Assembly (NCBI RefSeq): GCF_035994945.1
Contig: NZ_CP108678.1
Span: 248,001-312,000 of the forward strand
Direction: 5' to 3'
DNA from: Streptomyces sp. NBC_01216
Lineage (GTDB): Bacteria; Actinomycetota; Actinomycetes; Streptomycetales; Streptomycetaceae
DNA: 64,000 nt
Position numbers and translations under genes: made by a program. The notes beneath the pieces were generated by a model that was given only the letters and a program-made list of their open reading frames with translations, was not told the origin of the DNA and did not search any database. Positions 3,088 to 48,982 of the stretch are shown here, one piece after another (the stretch's first letter is position 1; every line of letters begins with the position of its first letter).

Positions 3088-3270
3088 GGTGTTGATGGTG
3101 CCGCGCGAAGAGGAGTCCAGTGCATCCCCGTGTCCGGCGGCGCGCCGCCCGGCCAGCGGTTGGGCGGACCGTAGTGAGGAGGGTGCGGCACCAGGCGCTG
3201 CGCTCAGTCGGCTCCAGGCCGAGGCCCGGGACCTCGGCCGGCCACCGTGGGCCGTGCCAGCCCTGCTTGG

Positions 3271-3554
3271 TGACGCAGGCGCCTGCGGTGACGCTGCTGG
3301 ATGACGCTGTGGCGGGTGCCCGATGCCCGCGCTGACGTGCGGGTTCCCCTCTGGCTAGGTGGGCGACAGACGCTGATGACGCTCTGACGCACCATGTCTC
3401 CGGTCCACTTTCCTCCTTCCCTCCCCTTCTAGTGAGATGGGGTATGAGAGCGTCATCAGCGTCATAGCCACACAGCCACGCACAAGAACATGAAGGTCAA
3501 AGCCAGTTCAGGGTGGGCAGAGAGTGCGTCATGGGGAGCGTCACCGCTGCGTCA
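3271..3554. repeat. cluster of ten TGACGC hexamers (iteron-like)
   Basis: TGACGC occurs on the plus strand at 3271, 3289, 3302, 3377 and 3385, then as its complement GCGTCA at 3450, 3459, 3526, 3538 and 3549. Five copies in one direction face five in the other, centred near 3420. About 0.2 copies would be expected by chance in 284 bp of this composition. No convincing gene covers the stretch. It could be a replication-initiator or regulator binding array. It ends right at the edge of the inverted-repeat element. Confidence 0.7.
3369..3463. repeat. 17-bp perfect inverted repeat inside the hexamer cluster
   Basis: GACGCTGATGACGCTCT at 3369-3385 is repeated in inverted orientation at 3447-3463, separated by 61 bases of lower-GC sequence that includes TTTCCTCCTTCC. 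This could place protein sites symmetrically around an AT-richer segment. The arms are too far apart to act as a terminator. Confidence 0.7.
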
Positions 3555-3558
3555 CCGC

Positions 3559-3945
3559 TGTCCCGTGACAAGTGATCTTGACCAGTTGCCAGGTGAGTTT
3601 GACCGCCTGCTTCGGCCTTGCGAGCACCGATCTATGGTTAGCAGTGAATCCGTAGGTCGCCGTCGTGACAGAGGACGACGACCTGGTCGCCAGTCTCGAT
3701 GACGTGCCAACGTTGCTCCCGGGCGTGGCCAAGAAGGGCGTCCATCCCGCCGTTGTTGTCCACGTCCCTCCGGGCGCGTCGGACCACGCCGCCAGCAGTG
3801 GCCTGCCCGGCTTGGAACATCTGTTGCATCCAAGGAGTCAAAGGCATAACTCGACTGTAGGTCGGGGAAGGTCAACCCGCCTGTCCCACCAAACCGAGCG
3901 GTCAAACTCACCTGGCAATCGGTCAAGATCATCTGCCAGAGGACA
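3559..3945. mobile_element. MITE-like inverted-repeat element with 5-bp target duplication
   Basis: The left end (3559-3605) and the inverted right end (3899-3945) match over about 47 bp; both begin TGTCC and share the core TTGCCAGGTGAGTTTGACCG. The element is flanked by the direct repeat ACCGC (3554-3558 and 3946-3950), a 5-bp target-site duplication. At 387 bp it has no room for a transposase; inside is one 69-residue frame. The same architecture recurs at 22571-22969, so this is a family, probably moved in trans by a full-length insertion sequence elsewhere. Confidence 0.8.
3638..3847 (-). CDS. 69-aa hypothetical protein carried inside the MITE-like element
   Basis: 69 residues, beginning MPLTPWMQQMFQAGQATAGG and ending QVVVLCHDGDLRIHC. 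Composition and strand/helix alternation look like a real small protein, and the frame lies entirely between the element's inverted repeats. The ATG has no strong Shine-Dalgarno. If translated, it would be a passenger gene of the element. I do not recognise the family. Confidence 0.4.
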   Translation of the reverse strand: MPLTPWMQQMFQAGQATAGGVVRRARRDVDNNGGMDALLGHAREQRWHVIETGDQVVVLCHDGDLRIHC

Positions 3946-4175
3946 ACCGCCTGCCGGACGCGACGACCGTCTCGCGTCCGGCACCGCTGGGCCCACGGTG
4001 GTCTCCCCCTCCCCCGCGGGCCCCGGGGTGCCGGACGCTGTGGGAGGCGCTCCTCGGACTGGACCGGCCGGGCTTCCGCGGGTGTCCGGGCATGCGGACG
4101 GCCCGCGCGTCCAGGCGGCGACGGCGGGTGAGGGTGAGGGGTATGGGGGCCTGGGTCCGTCGGGCGGGTATTCGG

Positions 4176-5780
4176 TTAGGTGCGCGGCTCCGGGGTGGAG
4201 TGGAGGGTAATGAGGAAGCCGCGCCCGGAGCCGGTGCGGGGCGTCTTGCGGATGTCGATGCCTCGGCCGCGCAGCGCGGGGGCGAGGGAGGTCAAGCGGG
4301 CGGAGAGCAACGCGGTCGTCTTGGGCCAGGTGTCCGGGAGGGGGCCGGGTGGCCGGAGGACGGTGTCGATCTGGCCGGTGGTGGCCTGCCATTCGGTGGT
4401 GTACGCGGCGCTGGCCCAGCGGGTGAGGGCGGTGGCGACCGGGTCGGCGTCGATGACGTCGTCGGTGACTTCTTCCTGAGCGCCGGTGTAGGTGGCCAGG
4501 GTGTCCCAGCCGGTGACCGCGTCCAGGGCCCACAGCAGTTCGGCCCAGTCGGCCATCCGCGGCCGCTGGTCGAGCTGGGCGGCCGCGTCGGGTAGGCGCG
4601 CCCACACTGCGGCGGCCAGATCGAGCAGGCCGCCGAGGATGCGGCCGTGCGCGGCACGGTAGCTGCGCCACAGGTCGGCCTCGCTGCGCCGGGCCTTGGG
4701 GTCGATCATCTCCAGGGTGAAGGGGAGCAGGCGTTCGGCGAGGTCGGGCTGGAGGGCGCCGACGTCGATGCCGGTCAGCACGACGGGGCGCTGGTACGCC
4801 CAGGAGGCGACGTCATCATCCGTATACATCTCGCGTTTGGCGACGGAGGCCCCGGTGACGGTGCGGCACAGGAAGTCCGACAGCCACTGGGGGATGCCGG
4901 CGATGTTGTCCAGGCCCATCGTCCAGCCGGCCGAGGCGGCGACCGCGCCGTCGTCCTCGCTGCGGGGGACGTTGCGGACCTCGGCCCGGATCCCGTCGAG
5001 GACCCGCAGCAGCTGCCTCGCGGAGGTGGTCTTCGCGGTGCCGCGTTCGCCGTTGAAGTACGCGACGGGGCGGGGCATGTTCGGCCGCAGCCCGGCCAGC
5101 AGCCAGGCGACGGCCATCCGCCAGGACGGTTCGGCCAGCGCGGACAGCTCGCGCAGCAGGCCCAGGCCCACCCGCCAGCCGCCCGGGTCGCGTTCGGGCA
5201 TCGGGAGCTCGCCGGTCAGGCGGGTGCGCCGCCACAGCGGGCCGTCGCCGACGGGCGGCGTGATCACCGACCAGGTGCCCGGTTCGATGCACACGCTCTG
5301 TCCGTCCGTACGGCCGAGGTCGAGCCAGGTCACCTGCTCGTCAACGGGGTCGGGGGCGATCCGCAGGTGGACCGGCTGTTCCGGAGCGTCCAGGGCAAGG
5401 GCGTCCATGGAGGCGATCGCATCGGTCAGGCACCCCTGGGACGGGGCCCTGCCGGTGCGCAGGACGTAGGAGCGGTTGAGGAGTTGACGCAGGCTGCCGG
5501 TGCCGCCGAAGCCACCGGCGGCGCGCAGCGGGCGGGCGATCGGCGGGCCTTCGGCCGGGACGGCGTACGCGGTTTGGTCGCAGCGCACCAGGACGTACTC
5601 GTCCATGCCCAGGTGCAGCAGGACATCGGCCTGCGACATCTTCGGCCCGCGCTCGGGGCTGGGCTGCTCGTCCGGTGCCGCGGCTGTCGACTCCCCCGCT
5701 TGGGCGGGCGGTGCCGGACGGGCGGGTCGGGGTTCGCCGGCCGGGAGCGGGAGCGTCACGCGGGTGGTCAGGTCGGTCAT
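4176..5780 (-). CDS. plasmid/phage-type helicase-like ATPase
   Basis: 534 residues. A disordered Pro/Ala-rich N-terminus is followed by a P-loop module: YFNGERGTAKTTSARQLLRV near residue 240 (GxxGxxKT Walker A) and a later VVLTGIDVGALQPDLAERLL that resembles the sensor strand and arginine-finger region of SF3/D5-like helicases. Its ATG overlaps the stop of the primase gene by 4 nt (ATGA), so translation is coupled. In this position it is likely to unwind DNA for the adjacent primase-polymerase. The family label is inferred from the motifs and neighbour. Confidence 0.65.
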   Translation of the reverse strand: MTDLTTRVTLPLPAGEPRPARPAPPAQAGESTAAAPDEQPSPERGPKMSQADVLLHLGMDEYVLVRCDQTAYAVPAEGPPIARPLRAAGGFGGTGSLRQLLNRSYVLRTGRAPSQGCLTDAIASMDALALDAPEQPVHLRIAPDPVDEQVTWLDLGRTDGQSVCIEPGTWSVITPPVGDGPLWRRTRLTGELPMPERDPGGWRVGLGLLRELSALAEPSWRMAVAWLLAGLRPNMPRPVAYFNGERGTAKTTSARQLLRVLDGIRAEVRNVPRSEDDGAVAASAGWTMGLDNIAGIPQWLSDFLCRTVTGASVAKREMYTDDDVASWAYQRPVVLTGIDVGALQPDLAERLLPFTLEMIDPKARRSEADLWRSYRAAHGRILGGLLDLAAAVWARLPDAAAQLDQRPRMADWAELLWALDAVTGWDTLATYTGAQEEVTDDVIDADPVATALTRWASAAYTTEWQATTGQIDTVLRPPGPLPDTWPKTTALLSARLTSLAPALRGRGIDIRKTPRTGSGRGFLITLHSTPEPRT

Positions 5781-6838
5781 GGCCGTGCTCCGGGGCTCGG
5801 GATGGTGCGCGGCGAGCGCATGCCCGCCTGGAGTGCGCGGCGGAGGGTGGACTGGGCCTTGGCTTCGCCGGGGTCGACCCCGGCGAGCGCGGCAGCCTCG
5901 GTGAGGGCCTGGTGGACGTCGTCGAGCTCCAGCAGTCCGGCGCCGACCAGCTGGCCGAGTCTGAACCCGGCGCGGTTGAGCTGGTCGTTGCGGCCGGAGC
6001 GGGCGCCGGCGACGGTCTTGGTTTCCCGGCGCAGTGCCGCGGCGGCGTACGCGGCCGCGTCGCCGGGCCGGTGGCGTACGGCGGGGCGGGGAAGCCGGAT
6101 CCGGGCCGGCGGCGGTTCGGCGGGGTCACGGCGCCGCATTCCGACGCGGGCCAGCTCAAGGGCGAGCCAGCGCGGCAGCCGGGCGGGTTCCATCACCGGA
6201 CCGGTGACCTGGTAGCAGCCGACCGGGGTGCGGGTGGTGGGCGCGACGGCGGTGGACCAGCCGGCCCGCACGTCGATCTGCCAGCCGAGCCGGCCCGAAC
6301 CCTGGGTGAAGCGGGCGTCATCGGTCCGGTACCAGAGGTGGATCCCGCCCCCCGGGGTGCGCACCGTCAGCGTCGGCGGGGCGTGCAGCAGGCTCTCGGC
6401 CCGCCGCACCCGGCACAGCAGCTCCAGCACATCCACCCCGGTGCGCACCCGATCGGCCTCCGGGACGGCGGCCAGGTCGAGGCCGGGCAGCACCAACTCC
6501 CGCCCGGGGAGCGGGTGGTGGTGGTCGTCCAGGTCGAGGACCAGGAGACCGGACGGCCCGGTGGCCACGCCGACGGCGAAATCGCGGCCGCGCCACCAGC
6601 GGCGGATCAGGTCCGGATCGGTCGTCGCCGCCCGCACCCCGTGGCAGTACCGTCCCGCCGCCAGGCAGCCGCAGCCGCCAGCGCCCAGGTCGGGAAACCC
6701 GCAGGGCGGCGGGCCACCGGGCGTGGGCGGCCGGCACCGGCGGCAGTTGCCGGTAGGAGTCTTCGATCCGGGGCACAGCGGATGGACCCACCACCCTCTG
6801 CCCGCGCACCGCAAGGCCAGCTCGAGTCCGTTGCTCAC
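5777..6838 (-). CDS. bifunctional DNA primase/polymerase (Prim-Pol)
   Basis: About 353 residues from the GTG at 6838. It carries archaeo-eukaryotic Prim-Pol signatures: VHPLCPGSKTP near the N-terminus, the metal-binding LVLDLDD, GGGIHLWYR (the GGxHxW element) and IDVRAGWSTAVAP (third acidic residue and conserved strand). A cysteine cluster (CRRC, CGC, C) between residues 33 and 67 may bind zinc. The C-terminal PriCT-like helical part is present. It would synthesise primers for plasmid DNA replication. It starts 7 nt after the upstream gene and overlaps the downstream ATPase by 4 nt. Confidence 0.8.
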   Translation of the reverse strand: MSNGLELALRCAGRGWWVHPLCPGSKTPTGNCRRCRPPTPGGPPPCGFPDLGAGGCGCLAAGRYCHGVRAATTDPDLIRRWWRGRDFAVGVATGPSGLLVLDLDDHHHPLPGRELVLPGLDLAAVPEADRVRTGVDVLELLCRVRRAESLLHAPPTLTVRTPGGGIHLWYRTDDARFTQGSGRLGWQIDVRAGWSTAVAPTTRTPVGCYQVTGPVMEPARLPRWLALELARVGMRRRDPAEPPPARIRLPRPAVRHRPGDAAAYAAAALRRETKTVAGARSGRNDQLNRAGFRLGQLVGAGLLELDDVHQALTEAAALAGVDPGEAKAQSTLRRALQAGMRSPRTIPSPGARP

Positions 6839-21505: not shown

Positions 21506-21579
21506 CGCGGGGTGGAGCAGCTCGGTAGCTCGCTGGGCTCATAACCCAGAGGTCGCAGGTTCAAATCCTGTCCCCGCTA
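21506..21579 (+). tRNA. initiator tRNA-fMet (CAT)
   Basis: 74 nt. The acceptor stem CGCGGGG pairs with CCCCGCT leaving C1 unpaired, and the anticodon stem has the three G-C pairs GGG/CCC around the loop CTCATAA, both hallmarks of bacterial initiator tRNA. The D arm (GAGC/GCTC) and T arm (CAGGTTCAAATCCTG) are intact. The 3' CCA is not encoded. It is followed at once by a terminator. Confidence 0.9.
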
Positions 21580-21585
21580 CTCTCC

Positions 21586-46153: not shown

Positions 46154-47344
46154 GTGCCCCAGATCTGGGCAGGCGTGGACATTGGCAAGACACACCACCA
46201 CTGCGTGGTCCTGGACGCCGAGGGAAAGAAGCGGCTCTCGCGCCGGGTCCTGAACGACGAGCCGGAACTTCTGACACTCCTCGCCGACGTACTGGCCGTG
46301 GACGAGGATGTGCTCTGGGCGGTCGACGTCGCCGATGGCATGGCTGCCCTGTGGATCAACGTGCTGCTCAATCACGGCCAGCAGCTGGTCTACATACCGG
46401 GCCTGGCGGTCAACCGGGCCGCGGCCGGCTACCGGGGCATGGGCAAGACCGACGCGAAGGACGCGACCGTCATCGCCGACCAGGCCCGGATGCGCCGGGA
46501 CCTGACCGTGCTGCGGCCGGACGACGAGCACGCCATCGAGCTGCGAGTCCTCACCAACCGCCGGGCCGACCTGACCGCTGACCGCACCCGCCGGATCAAC
46601 CGCCTTCGCGGTCAACTCACAAGCATATTCCCTGCCTTGGAACGAGCACTGGACCTCGGCAACAACGGTCCGCTGATCCTGCTGAGCGGCTACCAGACCC
46701 CTGCCGGTCTGCGTCGCACCGGCCGTAAGCGGCTGGAAACGTGGCTGCGTAACCGCAAGGTCCGCAGCCCCGAAGCCCTCATCGAGGCCGCCATGGAAGC
46801 CGCCGAGCGCCAGCACACCGCCGTCCCCGGGGAGAAGATCACCGCGCAGGTGATCCACACCCTGGCCAAGGAGGTGATGGGCCTCAACGAGCAGATCGCC
46901 GAGATCGACAAGCTCATTGCGGCCCGGTTTCGCGAGCACGAGCTCGCCGAAGTGATCGAGAGCATGCCCGGCATCGGCCCGCTGATGGGCGCCGAGTTCC
47001 TCGCCGCCACCGCCGGCGACATGAGCCGCTACGGCACAGCCGACCGCCTGGCCAGCCTCGCCGGCGTCGCGCCGGTGCCCCGCGACTCCGGCAACGTCAG
47101 CGGCAACCTCCACCGGCCCCGGCGCTACCACCGCGGCCTGCAACGCGTCTTCTACACCTCCGCACTCATCAGCATCCGCAACTGCGACGCCTCGCGACGC
47201 TTCTACGAACGCAAGCGCGCCGAAGGCAAGCGACACACCCAGGCCGTCCTTGCCCTTGCCCGACGACGAGTCAACGTCCTGTGGGCCCTGATCCGTGACG
47301 GACGGTGCTACGAGCATGGACTCTCTGCTGCATCTGCGGCTTGA
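46154..47344 (+). CDS. IS110-family transposase
   Basis: 396 residues from a GTG with GGAGG five bases upstream. N-terminal DEDD RuvC-like domain: VDIGKTHHHCVV (first Asp), DVADGMAALW, and GMGKTDAKDATVIAD (KTDxxDA signature). The C-terminal Tnp_20 domain holds MPGIGPLMGAEFLAA and APVPRDSGNVSG with the serine nucleophile region, then RRYHRGLQRVFYTSA. All parts are present, so the element could be active. Confidence 0.93.
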   Translation: MPQIWAGVDIGKTHHHCVVLDAEGKKRLSRRVLNDEPELLTLLADVLAVDEDVLWAVDVADGMAALWINVLLNHGQQLVYIPGLAVNRAAAGYRGMGKTDAKDATVIADQARMRRDLTVLRPDDEHAIELRVLTNRRADLTADRTRRINRLRGQLTSIFPALERALDLGNNGPLILLSGYQTPAGLRRTGRKRLETWLRNRKVRSPEALIEAAMEAAERQHTAVPGEKITAQVIHTLAKEVMGLNEQIAEIDKLIAARFREHELAEVIESMPGIGPLMGAEFLAATAGDMSRYGTADRLASLAGVAPVPRDSGNVSGNLHRPRRYHRGLQRVFYTSALISIRNCDASRRFYERKRAEGKRHTQAVLALARRRVNVLWALIRDGRCYEHGLSAASAA

Positions 47345-47778: not shown

Positions 47779-48117
47779 CTACTGGTCGGCGCCGGTCACG
47801 TGCAGCCCTGAGACGCTGGGCAGCTGCGAGAGGATCGTGTAGAACTCCGCCGGCTGGTATCGGGCCTTGCGCTCCCTCTTGCCGAGCCGGAGCGCCAGGT
47901 GCACCTCCACGTCGTCGATGGCGTGGTCCCGGGTGGCGATGTATCCGGTGTCCTGGCACGAGAACGTCACCGACTGGACGATCGTCATCAGTTCGCCGAG
48001 GGCGACCCGGTCGCCCTTGCGGGGCAGCGGCAGGCTGCCGGTCTCCCAGGTGAAGTCCGCCTCGTATTCGACCTCGCCGTCGTTGATGCCCAGGTCGAAG
48101 CTGATCTCTGCGCGCAT
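47779..48117 (-). CDS. hypothetical protein, 112 aa
   Basis: GGAG seven bases before the ATG. Beta-rich (MRAEISFDLGINDGEVEYEA; VEVHLALRLGKRERKARYQP). Function unknown. Lies 63 bases before the 120-aa gene on the same strand. Confidence 0.6.
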   Translation of the reverse strand: MRAEISFDLGINDGEVEYEADFTWETGSLPLPRKGDRVALGELMTIVQSVTFSCQDTGYIATRDHAIDDVEVHLALRLGKRERKARYQPAEFYTILSQLPSVSGLHVTGADQ

Positions 48118-48145
48118 GGCTGTTCTCCGTTTCCGTCGTTGTTGT

Positions 48146-48170
48146 GGCCGCGGCGCGCTGCGCCGCGGCC
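48146..48170 (-). terminator. 11-bp hairpin after the tRNA-like gene
   Basis: GGCCGCGGCGC at 48146-48156 pairs perfectly with 48160-48170 around GCT, ten bases after the tRNA-like 3' end. Confidence 0.65.
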
Positions 48171-48179
48171 GGGTGGTCG

Positions 48180-48386
48180 TGCTCCTGGCGGGAGTCGAAC
48201 CCGCGCCGGGTAGACGAGCTTGGAAAACGCGCTTCCCTGCCGGGGGTTCGGGGGTGTCAGCCCCTCGTTGAGGTTCCCCAACCCTGGGGCTTTTGGCTGG
48301 CCAGGGCCCGGTCCCGGTGCATCCGCAACCGTCTCGTCATGACGCCGTTCCGTTTTACGGCCGCTCTTCCGCTGAGCTACAGGAGC
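48180..48386 (-). tRNA. tRNA-like gene with about 130-nt insertion (possibly tRNA-Gly, TCC)
   Basis: The 5' part has an acceptor strand GCTCCTG, TA, and a D arm GCTC-AGCGGAA-GAGC. The 3' part has a T arm GCGGGTTCGACTCCCGC and the matching acceptor strand CAGGAGC with discriminator A. The two ends pair perfectly over 7 bp but are 207 nt apart instead of about 74. An anticodon-like loop TTTCCAA with imperfect stem CGCGT/GCTCG lies in the 3' part, giving anticodon TCC. The insertion falls between D arm and anticodon arm. A promoter element is 34 bases upstream and a terminator follows. It may be an intron-bearing, tRNA-derived or degenerate gene. Confidence 0.55.
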
Positions 48387-48419
48387 GGGATCGGGCGGTG
48401 CGCCCTCCCCACGGCACAT

Positions 48420-48449
48420 ACATTACACAGACTCAGAGTGTTAAGCAAT
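48420..48449 (-). promoter_or_regulatory. shared promoter element, copy C
   Basis: Minus strand: TTGCTT, 17 bases (AACACTCTGAGTCTGTG), TAATGT, 34 bases before the tRNA-like 5' end. The distance fits a promoter with a short leader. Confidence 0.65.
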
Positions 48450-48481
48450 GTGTGTGTTGTGTTGGTCGGCCTTCGCGGTCG

Positions 48482-48982
48482 TCAGCGGGGCTTGGCGGTC
48501 TCCCTGTCGGGCTCCGCCGGGCCGGCTTGCCGCCGGTCGCTCCGGGCGTCCGGTGCGCCCTCGTACGGATGCCAGGTTGCCGCCGCGCGGTGGGGGAGGC
48601 GGGTGGCGACGATGCTCGGCCAGTCCGTCTGGTCGTGTTCCCTCGGGGTGGTCGGGTGCGTGATCCAGTTGGTCGCTCCGGTCTCGTCGCTCAGCAGTGC
48701 CTCGACCAGGCACTGCCGGCACATGCCGATCTCGGGCGTCCAGTCCCGGAAGGTCGCGGGGGCCTGGGGGTGCAGCGCCGCGTGGCGCTGGGTGGCTTCC
48801 ATGATCAGGCGCGGCCAGTCGACGGCGCGCGCCACTCGCTCCAGGATGGCCGCCATGGCGTCCTCGACCGCCCAGACGTCCTCGGTGGGCATGGTGGTGT
48901 AGCTGCGGGTGCGCTGGTCCCAGCGGTGGTTCCCCAGTACGTCCTGCCGGAGGGTCTTGATCACGGCGAGTCGGTTGGGCAT
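48482..48982 (-). CDS. hypothetical protein, 166 aa
   Basis: AGGAGAG just before the ATG. MPNRLAVIKTLRQDVLGNHR, then a helical middle and MCRQCLVEALLSDETGATNW with a CxxC pair. The C-terminal 40 residues are polar and probably disordered. Family not recognised. Confidence 0.55.
   Translation of the reverse strand: MPNRLAVIKTLRQDVLGNHRWDQRTRSYTTMPTEDVWAVEDAMAAILERVARAVDWPRLIMEATQRHAALHPQAPATFRDWTPEIGMCRQCLVEALLSDETGATNWITHPTTPREHDQTDWPSIVATRLPHRAAATWHPYEGAPDARSDRRQAGPAEPDRETAKPR

Follow-up and report, generated by a model that had tools for sequence, protein, structure and literature searches.

A tRNA-shaped RNA of phages, plasmids and some bacteria with a predicted kissing helix between its anticodon-place hairpin and a conserved core

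Two papers describe YrlA RNAs near Ro60 and RtcB (PMC7790460, PMC8394870), and a Y RNA is defined in one of them as an RNA whose ends pair in a basal, Ro60-binding stem (PMC8394870). YrlA (RF02553) carries a tRNA D arm, a T arm and an acceptor-like helix, with a non-tRNA stem in place of the anticodon arm; the structure line of RF02553 reads basal stem, T arm, closed acceptor-like hairpin, D arm and basal stem. Other systems that place tRNA parts beside unusual ones are tmRNA, in which a tRNA-like domain has a large insertion on the anticodon side, and group I introns, which are inserted within tRNA genes. The tRNAs of phage arrays (RF00005) have the usual acceptor, D and T arms.

In the 64,000-nucleotide stretch of Streptomyces DNA analysed here (the window), a locus was found that is, as judged from its predicted fold, an intact structured RNA gene with tRNA acceptor, D and T arms. 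A DNA search showed that the element is present once on its 338,085-bp replicon of the 7.7-Mb genome. A sequence-only reading had placed a tRNA gene here whose acceptor halves pair perfectly about 207 nt apart and whose D and T arms are intact; the position, the seven acceptor pairs (GCTCCTG/CAGGAGC) and both arms were confirmed, and the strand was corrected to minus, with the gene running from 48386 to 48180. The parts of the RNA and its flanks are given below, with changes counted in A2, an alignment of 19 rows.

48180..48386, minus strand: entire gene of the tRNA-like RNA together with its discriminator base (187.2 bits by cmsearch over the complete model, 1-185; the window copy is itself one of the 19 rows behind this covariance model)
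48380..48386, minus strand: acceptor stem 5' strand GCTCCTG (both-sided changes in 5 of 7 pairs)
48363..48377, minus strand: D arm GCTC-AGCGGAA-GAGC (every cell pairs, with little variation)
48344..48361, minus strand: anticodon-place hairpin GCCGT-AAAACGGA-ACGGC (both-sided change in 4 of 5 pairs)
48351..48356, minus strand: kissing strand 1, loop AAAACG (loop and core change in a compensating way in 5 of 7 variant elements)
48333..48338, minus strand: P2 (basal helix of the giant variable arm), 5' strand GACGAG (5 of 6 pairs changed on both sides)
48316..48330, minus strand: core strand 1 GGTTGCGGATGCACC (conserved from Actinomycetota to Planctomycetota)
48238..48315, minus strand: P3 region and variable hairpins (both-sided change in 2 of 5 P3 pairs)
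48311-48307 with 48244-48240, minus strand: P3 pairing, CCGGG with CCCGG
48222..48237, minus strand: core strand 2 GGGAAGCGCGTTTTCC, containing kissing strand 2 CGTTTT (48229-48224)
48213..48218, minus strand: P2 helix 3' strand CTCGTC (covariation)
48188..48204, minus strand: T arm GCGGG-TTCGACT-CCCGC (both-sided change in 4 of 5 pairs)
48181..48187, minus strand: acceptor stem 3' strand CAGGAGC (covariation); the A at 48180 is the discriminator, and CCA is not encoded
48420..48448, minus strand: possible promoter TTGCTT-17-TAATGT (read from the sequence; consensus scan makes no call)
48146..48170, minus strand: GC-rich hairpin without a T run (read from the sequence; scan calls no terminator)

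The window element comprises a 7-bp acceptor, UA, a D arm with GG in its loop, a T arm (TTCGA) and the discriminator A. The hairpin in the anticodon place has an 8-nt loop, AAAACGGA (48356-48349), and not the 7-nt anticodon loop with U33 of a functional tRNA; the loops of the other elements are mostly A-rich and complementary to the core. As predicted from these parts, the tRNA body forms without splicing, and the A-rich loop makes kissing pairs with the conserved core, which is borne by a giant, extended variable arm (P2-core-P3).

The RNA thus predicted has the tRNA-like D, T and acceptor arms of YrlA. In contrast to YrlA, the order of its parts is acceptor, D arm, insert, T arm and acceptor, and its ends pair as the acceptor stem, whereas the ends of a Y RNA form the basal stem. 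Compared fold by predicted fold, YrlA is the nearest known design, with an arm order circularly permuted relative to the present RNA. RF02553 gave no match in the window region up to E 10. Unlike tmRNA, the present RNA has a full D stem, and RF00023 matched the window only over an 18-nt T-arm stretch (14.9 bits versus a cut-off of 47); a separate tmRNA is annotated in phage Comrade and was found in L056. Unlike the tRNAs of phage arrays, among which the element sits, the window element has no usable anticodon, and default runs of ARAGORN and Rfam leave it uncalled; RF00005 reached its cut-off on the short L083 copy (L144 394-547, 34.9 bits), one copy among the matches listed. Supply of a missing isoacceptor by the element was considered and rejected, there being no consistent gap in the partial phage arrays examined. 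The only tRNA called by ARAGORN in the window is a tRNA-Met(cat) at 21506-21580.

The window element belongs to a family of tRNA-shaped RNAs of phages, plasmids and some bacteria. Five Streptomyces plasmids carry it at 80-84% identity by BLAST, and strong matches were obtained in 4 of 392 Streptomyces genomes (G000, G146, G255 and G157), with a divergent copy in G349 and the 5' part alone in G256. Ordinary tRNAs also match the full-length model R1, which was therefore dropped for wide scans in favour of motif patterns: R1 matched in 388 of 396 Actinomycetota genomes, and among the matches listed only the window's own scored 187 bits, the next being 50.3. An exact 18-base core motif hit 28 stretches of the GTDB representatives, 16 of them with the element, in further Streptomyces, Streptosporangium, Planotetraspora, Herbidospora, Frankia and Archangium as well as in a Myxococcales MAG, a delta-proteobacterial MAG and two Planctomycetota. 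In the phylum samples the element was present in 3 of 294 Planctomycetota and 6 of 195 Myxococcota genomes, two of each already known. Motif scans of IMG/VR yielded about 42 contigs with the element, chance matches aside; when 32 IMG/VR stretches were scanned for tRNAs, 20 had at least five and three had none. In INPHARED, 23 Streptomyces phage records matched one query, and Satis, Quantum, Kradal and EhyElimayoE additionally matched the window element along its full length; among the INPHARED matches listed, the DNA under the element is unannotated save for a hypothetical protein in Moab and LuckySocke. In named phages, too, the element has a tRNA-array setting; in Comrade it occupies 80573-80727 of NC_048728.1. 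Two loci hold two differing copies each (L042 169-355 and 3474-3686; L093 2160-2340 and 7551-7790). No Rfam family fits the window copy. Literature searches that covered parts of PMC9569102, PMC7790460, PMC7824862, PMC12282133, PMC8394870 and PMC4810234 returned no published description of this RNA, though Chen 2014 and Sim 2020, on Y RNAs, may describe related ones.

Sixty candidates were parsed, and removal of the spurious L155 and L176 gave 58 distinct elements spanning 152-278 nt; copies that are truncated, divergent or came to light later (L089, L090, L094, L013, Comrade, Alone3 and those first met in the Planctomycetota and Myxococcota samples) stood outside this set. The acceptor is paired at 7 of 7 positions in 57 elements (the single one with 6 of 7 being L180), the D loop has GG in 57 and U8 is present in 48, and the T loop reads TTCGA in 53, TTCAA in four and TTGGA in one; since the parser favours acceptor, D-loop and T-loop features, these counts describe the shape and are not independent proof of it. 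A local hairpin of at least four pairs follows the D arm in 56 of the 58, as found by a permissive search without a control of its own. Covariation is an independent test of the fold and is stronger evidence than that search. In A2, 97.1% of the cells pair and both-sided changes occur in 20 of the 36 pairs (98 cells); none of 500 shuffles reached any of the measures, and pairing fell to 33-49% when partners were slid. The D stem hardly varies in this alignment, and the kissing pairs have no both-sided change in it. The sequence-only reading had proposed homologue conservation and covariation as checks; run here, they gave halves that are conserved in pairing and free in sequence, with covariation above chance on every measure. 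Forty different acceptor 5' strands occur in this set of 58, which would leave the family without one common synthetase identity.

The stretch inside the tRNA had been read as an insertion of about 130 nt. It is not foreign, being the most conserved part of the element: pairwise identity in A2 is 0.943 for the core (39 columns) versus 0.772 for the tRNA part (53 columns), the former figure being inflated because 15 of the 19 rows came via the core motif. The far-reaching searches also used core motifs, so the invariance of the core is partly by construction. Around the core, the P3 region includes an insert that is missing in several relatives (an indel in alignment A1). The larger members L065 and L081, and similarly L067, have in their 5' part an additional hairpin between the anticodon-place hairpin and P2, with a like loop (AGGGCGUCGCUCGG or AGGGUGAUGCUCGG).

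A core that is very conserved and largely unpaired over several phyla, with optional peripheral hairpins, might also be a ribozyme's active site, with the RNA itself or tRNA precursors as the substrate. We consider this improbable: there is no cleavage product to point at, and no Rfam ribozyme was listed at the window element or, up to E 0.01, at eight other loci.

The predicted kissing helix was examined through its natural variants, which were obtained by a motif scan without requirement for the core GUU. The usual pair, in most elements, is loop AACG with core CGUU; in the window, loop AAAACG faces core CGUUUU. The core site is altered in seven elements, and five of them have a matching altered loop:

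second L093 copy: loop AAAGCG, core CGCUUU
L162: loop AAAUGC, core GCAUUU
L174: loop AACUG, core CGGUU
L180: loop AAGC, core GCUU
L189: loop AACAUG, core CGUGUU

In each of these five the element's own loop outscores all, or all but one, of 51 consensus loops; for the second L093 copy, whose hairpin was not parsed, the scoring used 16 nt of sequence, which exceeds the length of the other loops. L185 is equivocal, 7 of the 51 consensus loops scoring equally well, and L134 shows no compensation. The anticodon-like loop TCC that had been assigned to the 3' part is not an anticodon: UUUUCC there is core, and its U run pairs with the hairpin loop of the 5' part. As the anticodon-like loop is tied into the RNA's own core, the RNA probably mimics tRNA instead of decoding.

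These pairings bear directly on the possibility that the element is a functional tRNA interrupted by a new small intron, an option that the sequence-only reading had left open. With introns allowed, ARAGORN does give a tRNA-Glu(ctc) with a 137-nt intron, though with mismatches in the anticodon stem, and covariation rejects this call. A spliced anticodon stem of five pairs could be formed in 2 of the 58 elements versus 1.6 expected from the five-mers of other elements (variable regions of 3-6 nt tried), and no intron family was listed for the window region by Rfam up to E 10, which sets the RNA apart from tRNA genes with group I introns. The anticodon place is already filled by the covarying local hairpin, whose loop covaries with the core in the kissing helix. 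An interrupted functional tRNA is therefore, in our judgement, highly improbable.

A decayed tRNA, also proposed before, or an artefact is the least credible reading of all. Decay would account for certain Streptomyces relatives in which the tRNA body or the core is no longer complete, namely L013 1400-1740 (minus strand), in which the core is kept and the tRNA part broken, and L010 at about 1500-1640, in which the 3' core is gone. For the window copy, covariation and conservation across phyla contradict this reading.

The flanks of the element gave less clear signals. The earlier claim of a promoter, "copy C" of a repeat, 34 bases upstream survived in part: the hexamers TTGCTT-17-TAATGT end 33 nt before the acceptor on the minus strand, and the NBC plasmid copies have TTGCTT-17-TATAGT upstream of the element. 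A consensus scan of 48050-48550 called no sigma-70 site, and the repeat was not confirmed, as an 18-mer that takes in the second hexamer has a single site in the window when up to three mismatches are allowed. The terminator said to follow directly was not borne out: a GC-rich hairpin starts 9 nt past the gene end, and the sole terminator-like site of the 48050-48550 scan lies on the plus strand within the element. An IS110-family transposase is encoded at 46154-47344, about 0.8 kb from the element; within the window, no link between the two was found.

The likeness to YrlA raises the possibility that the element is a true Y RNA with Ro60 (Rsr) as its obligate partner, the core being the Ro60 site and the tRNA face recruiting an effector such as PNPase. 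Several loci point this way. On one strand of L045, a Planctomycetota MAG, RtcB (577-1935), the element (3102-3312), a YrlA-like match (3842-3995, 31.7 bits) and Ro60 (4513-6090) follow one another; this match is weak, because sub-threshold RF02553 signals are common in controls (13 of 14 control genomes) and tRNA-type partial matches reach the mid-thirties. The stretch 577-6090 of L045 resembles an RNA-repair locus, possibly with two tRNA-mimicking RNAs. In three virus contigs, L069, L071 and L083, the element lies close to a Ro gene on the same strand; in the records L140, L144 and L145 of these three, a Ro reading frame opens 324 nt past the element in L140, and in L144 and L145 the longest Ro frames, with predicted starts, begin beside or before it. 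Ro-like genes were present in all five named phages tested. Among 42 records of phages, plasmids and viruses that bear the element, 13 have Ro60 (TROVE) above its cut-off and 14 have it at E 0.001; it was found in none of 10 other virus records, which are all below 49 kb and hence no matched control.

Against this, none of the five plasmids has Ro60, and the one Ro60 of the window genome is chromosomal. Ro60 was found in 6 of 21 element-bearing records, with no match in 15; the 21 include two genomes twice, one plasmid already counted, one decayed copy and one fragment. A strict Ro60 partnership is doubtful, because Ro60 occurs in 3 of 8 element-bearing Streptomyces whole genomes (4 of 10 with the decayed and fragmentary copies) versus 80 of 150 in a sample of the genus. 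The Ro60 site of Y RNAs has the form GNCGAAN(0-1)G, and this motif was not enriched, occurring in 6 of the 58 elements versus 7.7 expected. Furthermore, none of the 12 records searched with RF02553 exceeded the 69-bit cut-off; the best match in Satis, 43 bits, lies just upstream of a Ro-like gene, and the element is about 39 kb off in a tRNA array. This stretch of Satis (L146 1501-1609) is possibly an unannotated YrlA-type Y RNA of its own beside the Ro-like gene, separate from the element. Taken together, these findings make a true Y RNA unlikely.

No protein family common to the plasmid, virus and chromosome loci was found, which suggests that the element acts in trans. Two protein families are each common to five virus loci, and three of their members, when scanned, gave two weak HNH-endonuclease matches and one without a match; other sharing came from related plasmids or from reading the element as protein. 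This comparison omitted Comrade, Satis, Alone3 and MeganTheeKilla, in which the pattern does not match the core. At the Myxococcota loci, protein matches between loci were confined to the element itself or directly beside it, and among ten reading frames by six Myxococcota copies, six had ordinary Pfam domains, four had none and no RNA-repair protein was seen.

A kept shape with free sequence, a sealed loop and no constant neighbour fit a trans-acting tRNA mimic matured by tRNA enzymes. Such a mimic, serving as a Y-RNA-like scaffold or decoy, is in our view the best explanation of the whole, with a probability of roughly 0.5 as estimated from the sequence comparisons; it comes close to one option of the earlier reading, a tRNA-derived regulatory RNA. 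The arms in common with YrlA, the place of the L045 copy between RtcB and Ro60, the Ro genes close to the element in three virus contigs and the Ro60 of 13 mobile records agree with it; the 15 element-bearing records without Ro60, the ordinary Myxococcota neighbours and the unenriched Ro-site motif count against it. In this scheme transcription would run along the minus strand, and tRNA enzymes would trim the product, which would stay at about 207 nt. The RNA would be unable to decode, because its anticodon-like loop is held in base pairs and its acceptor varies freely in sequence. The acceptor/elbow face would recruit a general tRNA-binding protein and the conserved core a second partner, and the RNA might thereby, as a scaffold or decoy, take part in RNA repair or decay or else counter defences that attack tRNAs, a role that suits its place in phage tRNA arrays. 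We lean towards the scaffold or decoy, serving either RNA repair or anti-defence.

A narrower form of the decoy, bait for or an inhibitor of host anticodon nucleases or other tRNA-attacking systems, would account for the presence of the element in viral tRNA arrays and on plasmids, for the anticodon loop sealed by pairing and for an acceptor whose shape is kept and whose sequence is free; for YrlA, a comparable role is suggested by the authors of PMC7790460. The ordinary chromosomal settings of the Myxococcota copies speak against the narrower decoy, and we give this version a rather low chance.

More tentatively, and with slightly less confidence than in the tRNA mimic as such, the family may be an RNA class without its own Rfam 15 family. 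In such an RNA a kissing helix would hold the anticodon arm of a tRNA against an invariant core that a giant variable arm carries. It would be a circularly permuted counterpart of YrlA that phages and plasmids would spread to control or evade a universal tRNA-handling machine. If both descend from one tRNA-plus-stem ancestor by permutation in either direction, this would be a natural circular permutation between two non-coding RNA families. The RNA is conserved and lacks annotation as such in phage isolates that are well studied, in giant linear plasmids and in several phyla. A tRNA body that does not decode would offer a handle on roles of phage tRNA arrays outside translation. Through the permuted relation to YrlA one could test which face of a tRNA mimic is the important one for RNA repair with Ro60/RtcB, and the kissing helix allows clean loss-and-rescue mutants.

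Dense tRNA arrays enclose the element in two contigs sampled as Planctomycetota and possibly viral, L218 (1190-6841; 35 tRNAs in 13 kb) and L028 (33 in 8 kb). In phage phiC31 (NC_001978.3), an unannotated stretch from about 31424 (L135 801-890) has acceptor, D and T arms around an odd, enlarged anticodon region and has just its 5' 41 nt in common with the present RNA; in the related phage Lilbooboo (L154 301-388), an annotated tRNA-Gly lies where the phiC31 stretch matches.
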